Shown: one piece after another, positions 29,484-53,406 of the stretch
Position numbering within the stretch: the first letter of the stretch is position 1
Layout: every line of letters starts with the position of its first letter
Origin: Nocardioides sp. TRM66260-LWL
GTDB lineage: Bacteria > Actinomycetota > Actinomycetes > Propionibacteriales > Nocardioidaceae
Length of the DNA: 64,000 bases
NCBI RefSeq assembly: GCF_020075545.1
Contig: NZ_JAIQZK010000001.1
Span: 62,001-126,000 of the forward strand
Direction of reading: 5' to 3'
Made by a program: the position numbers and the translations under genes
The notes under the pieces: model-generated
Told to the model about the DNA's origin: nothing
What the model saw: the letters and a program-made list of their open reading frames with translations, nothing else
Databases searched by the model: none

Positions 29484-29518
29484 CGAGAGCCCGGCACCGT
29501 GATGGTGCCGGGCTCTCG
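29484..29518. terminator. 15-bp hairpin terminator
   Basis: CGAGAGCCCGGCACC (29484-29498) pairs perfectly with GGTGCCGGGCTCTCG (29504-29518) around the loop GTGAT. It lies 47 bp after the 29080-29436 gene, before the convergent MerR gene. There is no T-run, as is usual for actinobacterial hairpin terminators. The stretch from here to 29654 holds nothing else I can identify. Confidence 0.75.
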
Positions 29519-30600: not shown

Positions 30601-31905
30601 TCAGGAGGCACGGCGACCTCCGGCGTCGCGGGGGAGGCCGAGCCGGTCGAGGACCGCCGTCGCGGCGCGCTCCCCGGAGGCCAGCGCCCCCTGGAGCGAC
30701 GGCGTCGCGCGGTGGTCGCCGCAGACGACGAGGTCGTCGGCGAGCCAGGTGGCCTCGGCCCGCACGCGGGCCGGCACGGTCGTGGCCGGCAGCGCGTGGA
30801 CGATCTCGTGGCGTGCGACGGGCTCCCAGTCGCCCGGGTCGACGCCGTGGATCTCGCCCGCGTGCCGGCGCATCTCGGCCTCCGACGGGACCGGGCCCGA
30901 GCCGAGCAGCGCGCTGCCCTGGACGAGGTGGCGTCCGGCGGGAGCGTGCTCGGGCACGGCCTGCGAGACGACGGCGGTGTTGACCAGGGGCCCGCGGCCC
31001 GCGCGGACGTCGACGTGCACGAGGGAGTCGGCGGCCGGCGCGGTCGGTGCCGACCACCACTGGGTGACGACGCCCCGCGGCTCGGGGGCGGCGAGGTCGA
31101 GCCGGTCGTGCGCGGCAGCCGCGTCGGTGGCCCACACGATCACGTCCGCTCGGACGTCGCCGGCGGGGGAGCGGAGCAGCGCGCCGTCGGCGTCGCGCTC
31201 GATCGTCTCGACCTCGTGGTCGAGACGGACGTCGAGGCCCTCGGCCAGGAGCCGCGGCAGGACGCCGATGCCGCCCACGGGCAGCCCCGGGACGCCGGAC
31301 AGGAAGCTGCGGACCACGAGCAGGGCGTAGCGGTTGGCGACCTCGGCGGGGTGGTCGAGCACGACGCCGGAGAGGAACCCGAGCAGGGCCTCGCGCAGCT
31401 CGCCGGCGACGCCGGCGTCGTCCAGCGCGCGGCCGAGCGTCACGTCGTCGGCCGCCTCGACCCGTCGGGCGAGCCGGTGCGCGGCCGGCCCGGCCACGAG
31501 GACCGGGCGCAGCCAGCGGGCCAGGGCCAGCGCGTCGCCGGGGTTCCGACCGAGCGCGCCGAGGGTGCCCAGGGTCAGGCGCGGTGCCTTGAGCGGGTGG
31601 CCCCACCGGCGCAGGCCGTCGTCGGTGCGCAGGGCGAGCCCCGCGGTGAAAGGGCGCAGGTCCAAGCGCTCGACGTCGATCGCGCGCCGCAGGGCCGGGT
31701 AGCCGGGGTTGAGCACCTGGAAGCCGTGGTCGACGACGTGGCCGTCGACGACGTCGCTGGCGACGCGTCCGCCCACGCGTGCGGAGCGCTCGAGGACGGT
31801 GACGGCGAGGCCTGCCCGCTCCAGCACCGCCGCCGCGCGCAGGCCAGCGACGCCCGCGCCGACGACGGCGACGCGGCTCGCGCCTGCGCGGTGGTGGGAG
31901 GTCAT
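30601..31905 (-). CDS. FAD-dependent oxidoreductase (amine oxidase/phytoene-desaturase-like)
   Basis: A 434-residue flavoprotein. The N-terminal dinucleotide-binding motif is 'VAVVGAGVAGLRAAAVLERAG', extended by 'ARVGGR', and the C-terminal FAD motif is 'VCGDHRATPSLQGALASGERAA' in pieces. No membrane segment is present. It resembles actinobacterial protoporphyrinogen-oxidase or desaturase-like proteins placed beside MerR-DICT regulators and light-response genes. Substrate unknown. An AT-richer divergent promoter region lies upstream. Confidence 0.83.
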   Translation of the reverse strand: MTSHHRAGASRVAVVGAGVAGLRAAAVLERAGLAVTVLERSARVGGRVASDVVDGHVVDHGFQVLNPGYPALRRAIDVERLDLRPFTAGLALRTDDGLRRWGHPLKAPRLTLGTLGALGRNPGDALALARWLRPVLVAGPAAHRLARRVEAADDVTLGRALDDAGVAGELREALLGFLSGVVLDHPAEVANRYALLVVRSFLSGVPGLPVGGIGVLPRLLAEGLDVRLDHEVETIERDADGALLRSPAGDVRADVIVWATDAAAAHDRLDLAAPEPRGVVTQWWSAPTAPAADSLVHVDVRAGRGPLVNTAVVSQAVPEHAPAGRHLVQGSALLGSGPVPSEAEMRRHAGEIHGVDPGDWEPVARHEIVHALPATTVPARVRAEATWLADDLVVCGDHRATPSLQGALASGERAATAVLDRLGLPRDAGGRRAS

Positions 31906-31960
31906 GGAGCGTCAGCAGTCCTTCAGGTGTCGGATCACCCGTGCGTAGGTGATGAGCTTC

Positions 31961-32050
31961 AATCTACACCAAACCTCAACAGGGCCGCTGAGAACATGAA
32001 CAAAGATCTGAGGTTAGGGCTTGGAATCTCAACAGGACTGTGTGTAGATT
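31961..32050. promoter_or_regulatory. divergent promoter with nested inverted repeats
   Basis: AATCTACAC (31961-31969) and GTGTAGATT (32042-32050) are inverted copies, and AACCTCA (31972-31978) and TGAGGTT (32009-32015) are a second nested pair. CTCAACAGG occurs twice (31976-31984, 32028-32036). TAGATT on each strand could be a -10 element; TTGGAA (32021-32026) lies 18 bp from the rightward one. The local composition is much less GC-rich than the rest. It is a probable MerR-DICT target. Confidence 0.55.
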
Positions 32051-32103
32051 TCCGATCAGCAAGTTCAGCAGGCCCACCTCGGCAGCACAGGAACGGAGCT
32101 CGG

Positions 32104-32625
32104 ATGACCACCACCTCGGCCCACCCGGCCCGGTTCCTGCGCGGCCGCCTCCGACTGGTCGGCGGGGTGCAGCACGTGGCGGGCGACACCCCGCCGACCT
32201 CCTTCTCCGCAGCACGGCCCGGCACCCGGCCGATGCTGCTCACGCCGTACGCGGCCACCGCGCTCGAGTCGCCGTCCGCGACGGTCGCCGCGCGGCACAG
32301 CCGCTCGGGCCTGCAGCGCCGGCTCCGCGTCGGACAGCAGGTCGTGCTCGTCGACCGCCGCGGCGGGCAGCATGACGGCGTGGTAGAGGACATCGCCTAC
32401 ACCGAGGACGACGTCGTCTACCTCCTGGGACCGGAGCGACGCGGCCGGCGTCGTCCGACCTCCCTGCCGACGCCGACCGCGACTCCGGGCCCGTCCCGAC
32501 GCACCACCGCCCTGCTGGCGCGCACCGCGCCCGACACGGACCGCGACGCGCGCAGCGCGTCGGTCCTCGACCTCGAGCTCGCCCGGCGGCGTCGTGCCGC
32601 CCGGGAGGACGGAGCAGTCCGATGA
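32104..32625 (+). CDS. hypothetical protein, 173 aa
   Basis: Family not recognised. ATG 32104 has a GGAG site 6 bp upstream. A small beta-rich core, 'RLRVGQQVVLVDRRGGQHDGVVEDIAYTEDDVVYLL' in pieces, resembles an SH3- or PRC-like barrel; both ends are Arg/Pro/Thr-rich and probably disordered. No signal peptide. Divergent from the FAD oxidoreductase and coupled by ATGA to the next gene, it is probably under the same MerR-DICT-linked promoter. Confidence 0.5.
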   Translation: MTTTSAHPARFLRGRLRLVGGVQHVAGDTPPTSFSAARPGTRPMLLTPYAATALESPSATVAARHSRSGLQRRLRVGQQVVLVDRRGGQHDGVVEDIAYTEDDVVYLLGPERRGRRRPTSLPTPTATPGPSRRTTALLARTAPDTDRDARSASVLDLELARRRRAAREDGAVR

Positions 32626-33059
32626 GCACCACCCAGCCCACCCACGTGCAGCAGGCCGCCCGGATGCGTGACGCGCTCGGCCGTCTGCGCCGCTCCCGCG
32701 CCCAGCTCCTCCGGCGTCCCGAGGACTCCTGCCAGCGGGCGGTCGAGCGCGTCGACGCGCTGATCGACGGCCTCACCCGGCGGCTCGACGAGCTCGACCT
32801 GGCCGGGGCGCCCCTCGAGGCCTGGGCCGTCCTGGTCGACGACGACGGCCGCGAGGTCAGCGTCCGCACCCCCTGCGTCATCGGCGTCCCCGACGCCGAC
32901 GGTGTGCGTCATGTCGACCGAGCGCTGGAGATGGAGGGCGACGCAGCGGCCATGGGCCGGGCACGCCGCCTCCGGCTGATCGGCGGCGACGGCGGCGTCG
33001 GAGAGCTGCCGCTCGACGACCTCGGTCGCGCTCCCATCTGGTTCGAGCGCACCGCCTAG
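32622..33059 (+). CDS. hypothetical protein with N-terminal coiled coil, 145 aa
   Basis: Unrecognised. Residues about 10-60 are a basic/acidic helix ('QQAARMRDALGRLRRSRAQL', 'ALIDGLTRRLDELDLAG'), followed by a beta-rich part ('EAWAVLVDDDGREVSVRTPC'). It starts inside the stop of the preceding gene. The hairpin array begins six bases after its TAG, so the array lies in its 3' untranslated region. Confidence 0.55.
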   Translation: MSTTQPTHVQQAARMRDALGRLRRSRAQLLRRPEDSCQRAVERVDALIDGLTRRLDELDLAGAPLEAWAVLVDDDGREVSVRTPCVIGVPDADGVRHVDRALEMEGDAAAMGRARRLRLIGGDGGVGELPLDDLGRAPIWFERTA

Positions 33060-33064
33060 AAGAC

Positions 33065-33268
33065 TTGCCGGGTCCCCTGCCTTTCTGTGGCGGGCGGGCA
33101 GGGGGCCCGGCAACACCAGACTTGTCGAGGTCCTGCGCCTTTCTGTGGCGGGCAGGCGCAGGACCTCGGCAAACAGATGTGCCGGACCCCGCGTTCTTCT
33201 GTGGCGGGCGGACGCGGGGTCCGGCATCCCCTCGTGTCGGGGCCCTTCCGTGGCGGGCGGGCCCCGGC
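33065..33268. repeat. tandem array of four hairpins with variable stems and a shared loop
   Basis: Four units repeat about every 57 bp. Arms: 33065-33081/33097-33113 (17 bp), 33122-33139/33155-33172 (18 bp), 33180-33194/33212-33226 (15 bp), 33236-33245/33259-33268 (10 bp). Stem sequences differ between units, yet each pairs fully, with single G-U wobbles in units 1, 2 and 4. The loop keeps TTCTGTGGCGGGC (TTCCGTGGCGGGC in unit 4). Stem bases are similar at the foot (TTGYCG/CGGCAA) and vary in the middle. Function unknown. Confidence 0.9.
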
Positions 33269-33355
33269 CCATCTCCACGCGCGCCGCGGTCGGCGCCACG
33301 GCCGCTAGGCTGCCGCCGCGGCGCGCGCCCGTGCCGCCCGAGGGGCAGGAGACCG

Positions 33356-34075
33356 ATGACGACCGATGCCGCCGTCGACGACGGCCTCGCCCGCGTCCTG
33401 CTCCGTGCCGGCGTCGTCGCGCTGGCTCAGGTCGACCTCGCGCGCGAGCGGGCCGACGCCCTGCCGCTGGCCGCGAGCCTGATCAGCGTCGGCGCCGTGT
33501 CGGACGACGTGCTGGCCCGGGTCCTGGGGACGCATCACGAGCTGCCGGTGCTCGACCGCGCTCAGCTGGACGACCTCACCGCCCTGGTCGACGCGAGCGG
33601 CTCCGCGGCCGTCCCGGTCGAGGCCTGGCACCAGGGCCTCGGCGGCGTCGTCGCGGTCACGCCGGCGCCGGGGGTCGTCGCGATCGCGCGGCTGCGCGAC
33701 CTGCAGGCGACCGTCGGATCGCCGGGCGAGCCGCGCGCGGCCAGCGCCGACACCGCGGCGGGCGCCACCATCTCGGCGCTCCTCGATCGCGTGGTCGCGC
33801 TGCGCGCCGACGACGTCGTCAGCGAGTCGGTCGGCGACCGGGCCCGGATGCGGCTGCGGATCGGCGAGGTCGTCGAGGAGCTCCTCGACGTGCCCGCGGC
33901 GATCCTGCCGGCGCTCTCGGCGGAGCTGAAGCACCGGGCGGGCCTCGACCCGCTCGTCCGGCACCGGCCGCAGGACGCGCTGGTGCCGCTGCAGGCCTCG
34001 ATCGGCCCCGTGCTCGCGCACGTGGCGACCACGCCCACCCCCGCGGGGGAGCGGGTCGTCGTCAGGTTCGTCTGA
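33356..34075 (+). CDS. orphan GspE/PilB N-terminal (MshEN-like) protein without ATPase
   Basis: A 239-residue protein resembling only the N-terminal half of type II secretion/type IV pilus ATPases. Residues about 8-75 fit the MshEN/T2SSE_N domain ('LLRAGVVALAQVDLARERAD', 'LISVGAVSDDVLARVLGTHH'). Residues about 160-239 fit the domain just before the ATPase core ('MRLRIGEVVEELLDVPAAIL', 'KHRAGLDPLVRHRPQDALVP'), ending 'GERVVVRFV' exactly where Walker A would begin soon after. No ATPase or pilus genes lie nearby. TAGGCT (33306-33311) and an AGGAG site precede it. Confidence 0.72.
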   Translation: MTTDAAVDDGLARVLLRAGVVALAQVDLARERADALPLAASLISVGAVSDDVLARVLGTHHELPVLDRAQLDDLTALVDASGSAAVPVEAWHQGLGGVVAVTPAPGVVAIARLRDLQATVGSPGEPRAASADTAAGATISALLDRVVALRADDVVSESVGDRARMRLRIGEVVEELLDVPAAILPALSAELKHRAGLDPLVRHRPQDALVPLQASIGPVLAHVATTPTPAGERVVVRFV

Positions 34076-34266: not shown

Positions 34267-34480
34267 CTCGTCCTCCTCGGGTCCGGGTGCGCGTCGTCGC
34301 GCTCCGTGAGGAGCATGCGCCGGGGTCGGCCTGCTCCACAACGGACGGGGGCCAGGTCGACCCGACCGCCGTCGCAGATGACCCGATCGGACTATCCGGG
34401 CTCGACCTGAGCGGTTTCCCGGTGCGGATCGAGGCGGACCGGGCCGGCGCGGATCGACGCGGATCTGCCCGGAGACGACG

Positions 34481-34511
34481 CGAGGCCCCGACCGTGGTGG
34501 TCGGGGCCTCG
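34481..34511. terminator. hairpin terminator after tRNA-Lys
   Basis: CGAGGCCCCGACC (34481-34493) pairs perfectly with GGTCGGGGCCTCG (34499-34511) around GTGGT. It begins 8 bp from the tRNA-Lys 3' end on the minus strand, the expected place for its terminator. The remaining sequence between 34267 and 34480 shows no gene or clear site. Confidence 0.75.
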
Positions 34512-34519
34512 CGAGGTGG

Positions 34520-45260: not shown

Positions 45261-45294
45261 TGTCGGTTTCCCCGGGCGCCCGGGGAAACCGACA
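45261..45294. terminator. 34-bp perfect palindrome after the pirin gene
   Basis: Arms TGTCGGTTTCCCCGGGC (45261-45277) and GCCCGGGGAAACCGACA (45278-45294) are adjacent with no spacer. It begins 13 bp after the pirin stop and is the probable terminator. It touches a second palindrome directly to the right. Confidence 0.75.
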
Positions 45295-53280: not shown

Positions 53281-53300
53281 CGTCCGCCGCGCCCGAGCAC

Positions 53301-53330
53301 CCGGACCGGCCTCCCCCCAGGCCGGTCCGG
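53301..53330. terminator. hairpin terminator between aldehyde dehydrogenase and mce operon
   Basis: CCGGACCGGCCT (53301-53312) pairs perfectly with AGGCCGGTCCGG (53319-53330) around six C residues. It starts 21 bp after the dehydrogenase stop and should limit read-through into the mce operon. Confidence 0.75.
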
Positions 53331-53406
53331 GCCCCGACCGCCCCGCGGTCGTCCCCAGCCACCCAGCCCCCGGGGGGGAGGGGCCACCACGTCGAGGGAG
53401 GACGCG

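Follow-up and report, generated by a model that had tools for sequence, protein, structure and literature searches.

What maintains a row of long hairpins whose stems differ from copy to copy while their tips do not, directly behind a two-gene unit of a Nocardioides genome? The locus lies in a stretch of 64,000 nt from Nocardioides sp. TRM66260-LWL (GCF_020075545.1, contig NZ_JAIQZK010000001.1, forward strand, 62,001-126,000), which we call the window and within which all coordinates are counted unless a contig or locus is named. The original prediction placed four hairpins at 33065-33268, past a two-gene unit, and these coordinates proved to be exact, the array starting five bases past the stop codon of the second gene, ORF2. 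The genes and the array comprise the following features:

32104..32625, + strand: ORF1, 173 aa; similarity to a family of small proteins at residues about 36-110
32622..33059, + strand: ORF2, 145 aa; 4-base overlap with ORF1
33065..33113, + strand: hairpin U1, stem 33065-33082/33096-33113, 18 bp; 1x1 T.C; tip TCTG-TGG-CGGG
33122..33172, + strand: hairpin U2, stem 33122-33140/33154-33172, 19 bp; tip as in U1
33179..33227, + strand: hairpin U3, stem 33179-33196/33210-33227, 18 bp; tip as in U1
33236..33268, + strand: hairpin U4, stem 33236-33245/33259-33268, 10 bp; tip TCCG-TGG-CGGG
33278..33327, + strand: perfect inverted repeat of 12 bp with a 26-nt spacer, 3' of U4 and without the tip
33356..34075, + strand: ORF3, 239 aa, with a GspE/PilB-like N-terminal part; begins 87 bases past the array

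The stems of U1-U4 span 10-19 bp, and their only non-Watson-Crick pairs are G.T wobbles; the earlier description of fully paired stems of 10-18 bp with wobbles as the sole irregularity was thus right about the wobbles but set the upper length too low (19 bp in U2). What had been read as a conserved loop is indeed kept, yet it is not a plain loop: above a 1x1 T.C bulge stands a 4-bp tip, TCTG/CGGG or TCCG/CGGG, which a TGG triloop closes. Likewise, the feet that had been described as alike (TTGYCG/CGGCAA) are common to U1 and U2, are partly present in U3, and are absent from U4; a flanking AGAY is also partly common to U1-U3. Given these common feet and part of the flanking AGAY, the identity of the tips of U1-U3 may partly reflect recent duplication. 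In the alignment, U2 appears to be longer than U1 by one A-T pair, with a single base gained in either arm. The units start 58, 56, and 49 bases apart from U1 to U4, and since the reading frame shifts at every one of these spacings, a coding repeat or repeated protein is disfavored. Against shuffled sequences (n = 200), U1, U2, and U3 fold with z values of -5.4, -7.1, and -6.0, with no shuffle as good; U4 folds less well (z -2.3; equalled by 3 of the 200 shuffles), and the entire array reaches z -8.6. The inverted repeat at 33278..33327 is a possible terminator or ORF3 leader.

The original prediction held that the stems differ among the units, that both arms have changed together, and that structure is thereby kept, and the pattern of substitution bears this out. 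In the gap-free alignment of U1-U4, both-sided changes occur at 11 of the 21 pairs (shuffled mean, 4.2), and 92.9% of the cells are paired (76.0 in shuffles); none of 500 shuffles reaches either value, although these controls overstate the covariation because the units are related copies. When the partner strand is slid by 1-3 columns, pairing of U1-U4 falls to 33-49%, in a control that favors the structure, which was derived from the same sequences. With a fifth hairpin, H5 (see below), added to the alignment, the both-sided changes rise to 15 of the 21 pairs (0 of 500 shuffles as high). The tip behaves differently from the arms: 1 of its 13 columns is variable among U1-U4 versus 14 of the 20 in the inner arms (Fisher P = 0.0009). 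These observations support the conclusion that pairing, not stem sequence, is maintained in this set of hairpins. Read on the + strand, the 65 stem pairs include six G.T wobbles and no A.C (two-sided P = 0.03), an asymmetry that rests on six pairs; T.G pairs on the + strand are also used within the conserved tip. A DNA cruciform would show no strand preference for wobbles, which favors RNA, and the selected molecule looks like the + strand RNA, with the same sense as ORF1 and ORF2.

A scan for long hairpins recovered the fifth hairpin, which is absent from the original prediction:

32157..32199, + strand: hairpin H5, stem of 13 bp, all Watson-Crick; tip holding GTGGCGGGC

It lies about 0.9 kb from the array, where it falls within codons 18-32 of ORF1 or, if translation starts at 32233, belongs to the ORF1 leader. 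Its folding reaches z -4.0 against its own shuffles, and a perfect stem of at least 13 bp turned up in about 0.04% of draws at random sites of the 64-kb window. The 9-mer GTGGCGGGC occurs at 39 sites in 464 kb of the genome, and a stem of at least 8 bp surrounds it at five of these, namely, U1-U4 and H5, the stems at the remaining 34 being at most 5 bp long. Of the 13 tip positions, H5 has 9 in common with U1-U3 and 10 with U4, and it shows additional mismatches below the tip; its inner arms differ from those of U1-U3 at 15-16 of 20 positions and from that of U4 at 9 of 20. The original prediction was to fall if the loop were nowhere else found in a paired context: its own genome supplies such a case in H5, on a different stem, whereas the other genomes examined supplied none. 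As a measure of chance, the same 464 kb contain 62 adjacent hairpin pairs, three of them in the array; 9 of the other 59 share 6-9 nt near their centers, and these form no run of three or more. Short common tips therefore also arise by chance, though never three or more in a row.

To delimit the distribution of the element, we used two covariance models, R1, built from the four units, and R2, a five-unit model including H5. Genome-wide, R2 ranks the five hairpins, after which the score drops from 50.6 to 31.2 bits to unrelated hairpins; the score of H5 with R2 is not independent, as H5 is in the training set, and R1 does not list H5 in the window at E values of up to 10. The exact 13-nt tip occurs at four places in the genome, all inside the array, and no further tip-bearing copy was seen among the R1 and R2 matches inspected (at first look, 150 of 7066 and 4838 candidates were scored). 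All copies found in the 3.9-Mb genome fall within one 1.1-kb stretch, so that the known copies cluster in a single two-gene unit. Two model matches elsewhere in the genome were rejected as relatives of the array: C4:45272 (R1, E = 1e-4), which resembles coding sequence and lacks the tip, and C15:77486, which resembles an ordinary long hairpin.

Beyond this genome, two large model searches with strict filters, on overlapping samples, were run at E values of up to 0.001. R1 retrieved from 209 same-genus genomes only the genome of origin, that is, the array and one tipless hairpin on C4, and R2 retrieved from 312 genomes of the order the original locus and one foreign tipless hairpin (L160, E = 5.5e-4). 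The exact 13-nt tip is present in 68 of 294 family genomes, the genome of origin included; a reversed control pattern is likewise present in many of the 294, and the 30 foreign exact-tip places that were fetched have no stem longer than 3 bp. A pattern of two tips 28-58 bases apart, sought in 84,980 species in a genome collection that may leave out records of or near the genome studied here, returned 29 genome stretches, and in a collection of viral contigs one stretch, with no hairpin array among them. In these stretches, no complete tip has an uninterrupted stem of more than 5 bp around it; the single 5-bp case is L070, in which 10 of the 12 innermost positions can pair and the partner tip is without a stem. 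Sixty viral stretches with a related 15-mer contain 21 complete tips, with a longest stem of 3 bp, and BLAST searches with the array gave five plasmid records (best E = 0.2) and two phage records (best E = 0.7), of which the two examined are not hairpin arrays. No array of same-tip hairpins was found beside relatives of ORF1 at the 23 of 50 foreign places examined; two loci of such relatives (L113 and L126) have one adjacent hairpin pair each, with 7-8 nt in common. The FAD gene upstream has matches in 65 of the 209 genus genomes at E values of up to 1e-80, and as the best foreign one is only 54% identical, the sample contains no close species for a synteny comparison. With the element known from one genome, there is no between-species conservation to draw on. 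Literature searches, judged by titles, turned up nothing on the element, the titles retrieved being concerned with riboswitch distributions and terminator attenuation.

The 4-base overlap suggests that ORF1 and ORF2 are probably co-transcribed. The central part of ORF1 has matches, most of them weak, in 49 of 294 family genomes, the genome of origin included, at E values of up to 0.01 (52 places, 50 of them foreign); a weak PUA-like match lies below the cutoff, and the structure prediction is poor (mean pLDDT, 44). The true start may be the ATG at 32233 instead of 32104, as similarity to the relatives begins near it; by our reading of the sequence, however, the better Shine-Dalgarno-like sequence precedes 32104. 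The first 43 codons have G+C contents of 0.72/0.70/0.93 by codon position, which does not decide between the two starts. Small proteins of the ORF1 type, about 120-160 aa long with the core MELVEV...GLEPGEEL, occur in several genomes of the family (L110-L128), and a paralogue is encoded in the same genome at C11:147271-147489. This paralogue and some of the relatives lie near genes that, from their translations, we take to be DtxR-like and Sir2-like. ORF2 matches nothing in Pfam or NCBIfam and nothing among plasmids, and in 118 same-genus genomes it has two matches, one being itself; the other (E = 0.001) was rejected as an orthologue because it appears to be an unrelated protein, a coiled coil that carries a CxxC motif. 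A single-sequence model of ORF2 predicts a two-helix coiled coil and a beta domain (mean pLDDT, 76; pTM, 0.49). The top Foldseek rows for this model include the HelD N terminus and Gfh1 (E = 0.07 or worse), with GreA also among the weak fold matches, and VIA-align gives Z scores of 6.9-7.5 to Gfh1, GreA, and GreB over the coiled coil only, values that unrelated coiled coils tie or exceed. The predicted likeness to Gre/Gfh1 is thus weakly indicated and is a lead, not an assignment. ORF3 matches the N-terminal parts of T2SSE/GspE/PilB in Pfam, NCBIfam, and PDB. The T2SSE profile has 370 positions, and the match stops at position 111; no secretion gene was seen among the few neighbors scanned.

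On the basis of these observations, we propose, with a probability of roughly 45%, that the five hairpins are repeated RNA binding sites in the ORF1-ORF2 mRNA and regulate it post-transcriptionally through a factor acting in trans. Of the ideas offered in the original prediction, we favor that of a structured RNA or of a repeated RNA element that binds a protein because the wobbles are solely G.T on the + strand, because the array is placed in a two-gene unit, and because a fifth hairpin stands at the head of that unit. If the five sites share one transcript, the trans-acting factor, most likely a protein, would recognize the common tip (core GUGGCGGGC) on any sufficiently long stem, and such recognition would be the reason why the hairpins are kept. 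A factor bound to H5, where ORF1 begins, could stand in the way of ribosomes or of the elongating polymerase, and the four tandem sites past the ORF2 stop could bind several copies of the factor and thereby protect, mark, or titrate; the net outcome would be post-transcriptional regulation, perhaps autoregulation, of the operon. A more specific version, which we consider unlikely, is a system private to the operon, in which one of the operon's own proteins, either the beta protein from ORF1 or the coiled-coil protein from ORF2, the latter possibly polymerase associated, would bind a new hairpin code, the GUGGCGGGC tip on any long stem; with one such site opening the message and four closing it, the message would measure and limit its own expression. 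Two candidate RNA partners of the tip were tried and rejected. The tips of U1, U3, and U4 can pair with a 16S rRNA stretch, CCGCCCGTCACG, over 12 bp including wobbles, and that of U2 over 10 bp elsewhere; we do not hold to this pairing, as 118 of 200 shuffled U1 tips match over the same length and 9 of 200 equal the duplex energy, which is therefore borderline. A kissing partner inside the operon did not emerge clearly either, the best run being 10 bp including wobbles.

The main rivals of the RNA-site reading are a role in ending or stabilizing the message and an origin in arm-templated evolution. In the former, the array would be a stack of strong 3' hairpins acting on the ORF1-ORF2 mRNA as a T-less terminator or as a barrier to 3' exonucleases, with the tips alike only through duplication. 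Hairpins this stable and this close to the ORF2 stop are what it would predict, and there are other adjacent terminator-like hairpins in this genome. However, it does not account for tips that are far better conserved than stems, for a run of three or more adjacent same-tip hairpins that has no parallel in the 464 kb, where other neighbors share at most the short stretches noted above, or for H5 inside ORF1. The + strand T-run terminator pattern is not found here either, the only terminator-like site in 31900-33500 being on the - strand at 31993-31974, in a scan that covers T-run and not T-less terminators. We regard this explanation as somewhat unlikely. Still less probable is a purely mutational origin without present function, by which a hairpin was locally duplicated and arm-templated repair (quasi-palindrome correction) then rewrote both arms and spared the tip. 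Templated copying yields the apparent extra, mutually pairing bases of U2 more easily than a pair of point mutations does, and the restriction of the element to a single genome fits as well; yet such repair would leave Watson-Crick pairs instead of the six G.T and no A.C observed, and H5, which stands apart from the array by 0.9 kb and combines the same 9-mer with diverged inner arms, is hard to obtain by local duplication.

Neither a mobile element nor a type III antitoxin is supported. A DNA-level element, whether a single-strand recombination site, a REP-like mobile repeat, or an attC-like site, would share the long perfect inverted repeats with variable arms, but the copies found are confined to one 1.1-kb stretch, and the wobble asymmetry indicates one RNA strand. 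In addition, a Y1 (RAYT/IS200) transposase (PF01797) had no match at E values of up to 0.001 in this 99.95% complete genome, in a search whose control matched in 5 of 14 known genomes. We therefore consider such an element very unlikely, and the evidence does not support the earlier idea of a non-autonomous element recombining through folded single strands. The least probable of the alternatives is a type III antitoxin RNA, in which tandem RNA repeats precede a ribonuclease toxin gene and are cut into single units that assemble with the toxin; tandem structured repeats are indeed followed by a gene 87 bases on, but this gene is of the GspE/PilB N-terminal type, searches of Pfam, NCBIfam, and PDB link it to no toxin family, PADLOC finds in it only a weak match to the PtuA ATPase (E = 0.004), and the repeat units of the array are simple long hairpins.

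The earlier statement that no known family fits holds at the gathering thresholds of Rfam: against release 15, the whole window gave nothing at threshold except three tRNAs elsewhere. In a permissive scan of 33000-33360, the best row in bits was CC1840 on the minus strand (39.4 bits, E = 0.0006; threshold, 50), and the other 19 rows were mostly microRNA hairpin models far below threshold. The CsrA site is a GGA in hairpin loops, and CsrB is the best known multi-hairpin RNA with one loop motif. The present set resembles the sponge RNAs CsrB and RsmZ, which are described as multi-hairpin RNAs with a repeated loop motif (PMC7652899, PMC5027483), in that varied stems present one short tip motif, here as a predicted multivalent site for an RNA-binding protein. 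It differs from them in its motif, GUGGCGGGC, with the tip TTCYGTGGCGGGC lacking GGA in all four units, and in being joined to a protein-coding unit instead of forming a free sRNA. REPs keep their sequence and are scattered through the genome. The array is like the REP/BIME elements of RAYT transposases in consisting of palindromic repeats past stop codons, but its stems vary, its tips are kept, it occupies a single locus, and no Y1 transposase was found. In integron attC sites, the conserved part is the site ends (R' and R''); they share variable folded arms with the present hairpins, in which the conserved part is the tip. The tandem intrinsic terminators of high-GC bacteria are also strong GC hairpins past a stop codon; the present set differs from them in that its 13-nt tip is conserved and one further copy stands at the 5' end of the unit. 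Finally, the type III toxin-antitoxin RNAs ToxI and CptI are described as tandem structured RNA repeats adjoining a gene (PMC8860590, PMC4627078), an arrangement like that of the array, which differs in having plain long hairpins and no recognized toxin gene directly downstream. As multi-hairpin RNAs with one loop motif are already known, the set is best called one such that lacks the CsrA GGA motif, matches no Rfam family, and comes from one genome.

To our knowledge, few codes for RNA-protein recognition have been described in high-GC Gram-positive bacteria. Natural sites that keep a tip of 9-13 nt while their stems change amount to a ready-made specificity experiment, as features that a binder would need can already be told apart, across the five sites, from those that it ignores. 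A factor, if one were found, would be a new regulator at the post-transcriptional level and might provide an orthogonal RNA tag; should none be found, the locus would be a good case of arm-templated hairpin evolution.

Other hairpins were encountered in the course of this analysis. Strong 13-15 bp hairpins with short loops occur in the window at 34479-34513, 29484-29518, 45261-45294, and 53300-53331 and are probably ordinary T-less terminators. Palindromes of the form GTTTCAYCGGCC..GGCCGRTGAAAC, often adjoining other long hairpins, recur in this genome and in two others of the genus, with sites at L105 449-534 (G090) and L029 1694-1722 (G162) in addition to stretches of the same genome, and are possibly a terminator or repeat type common in the genus.
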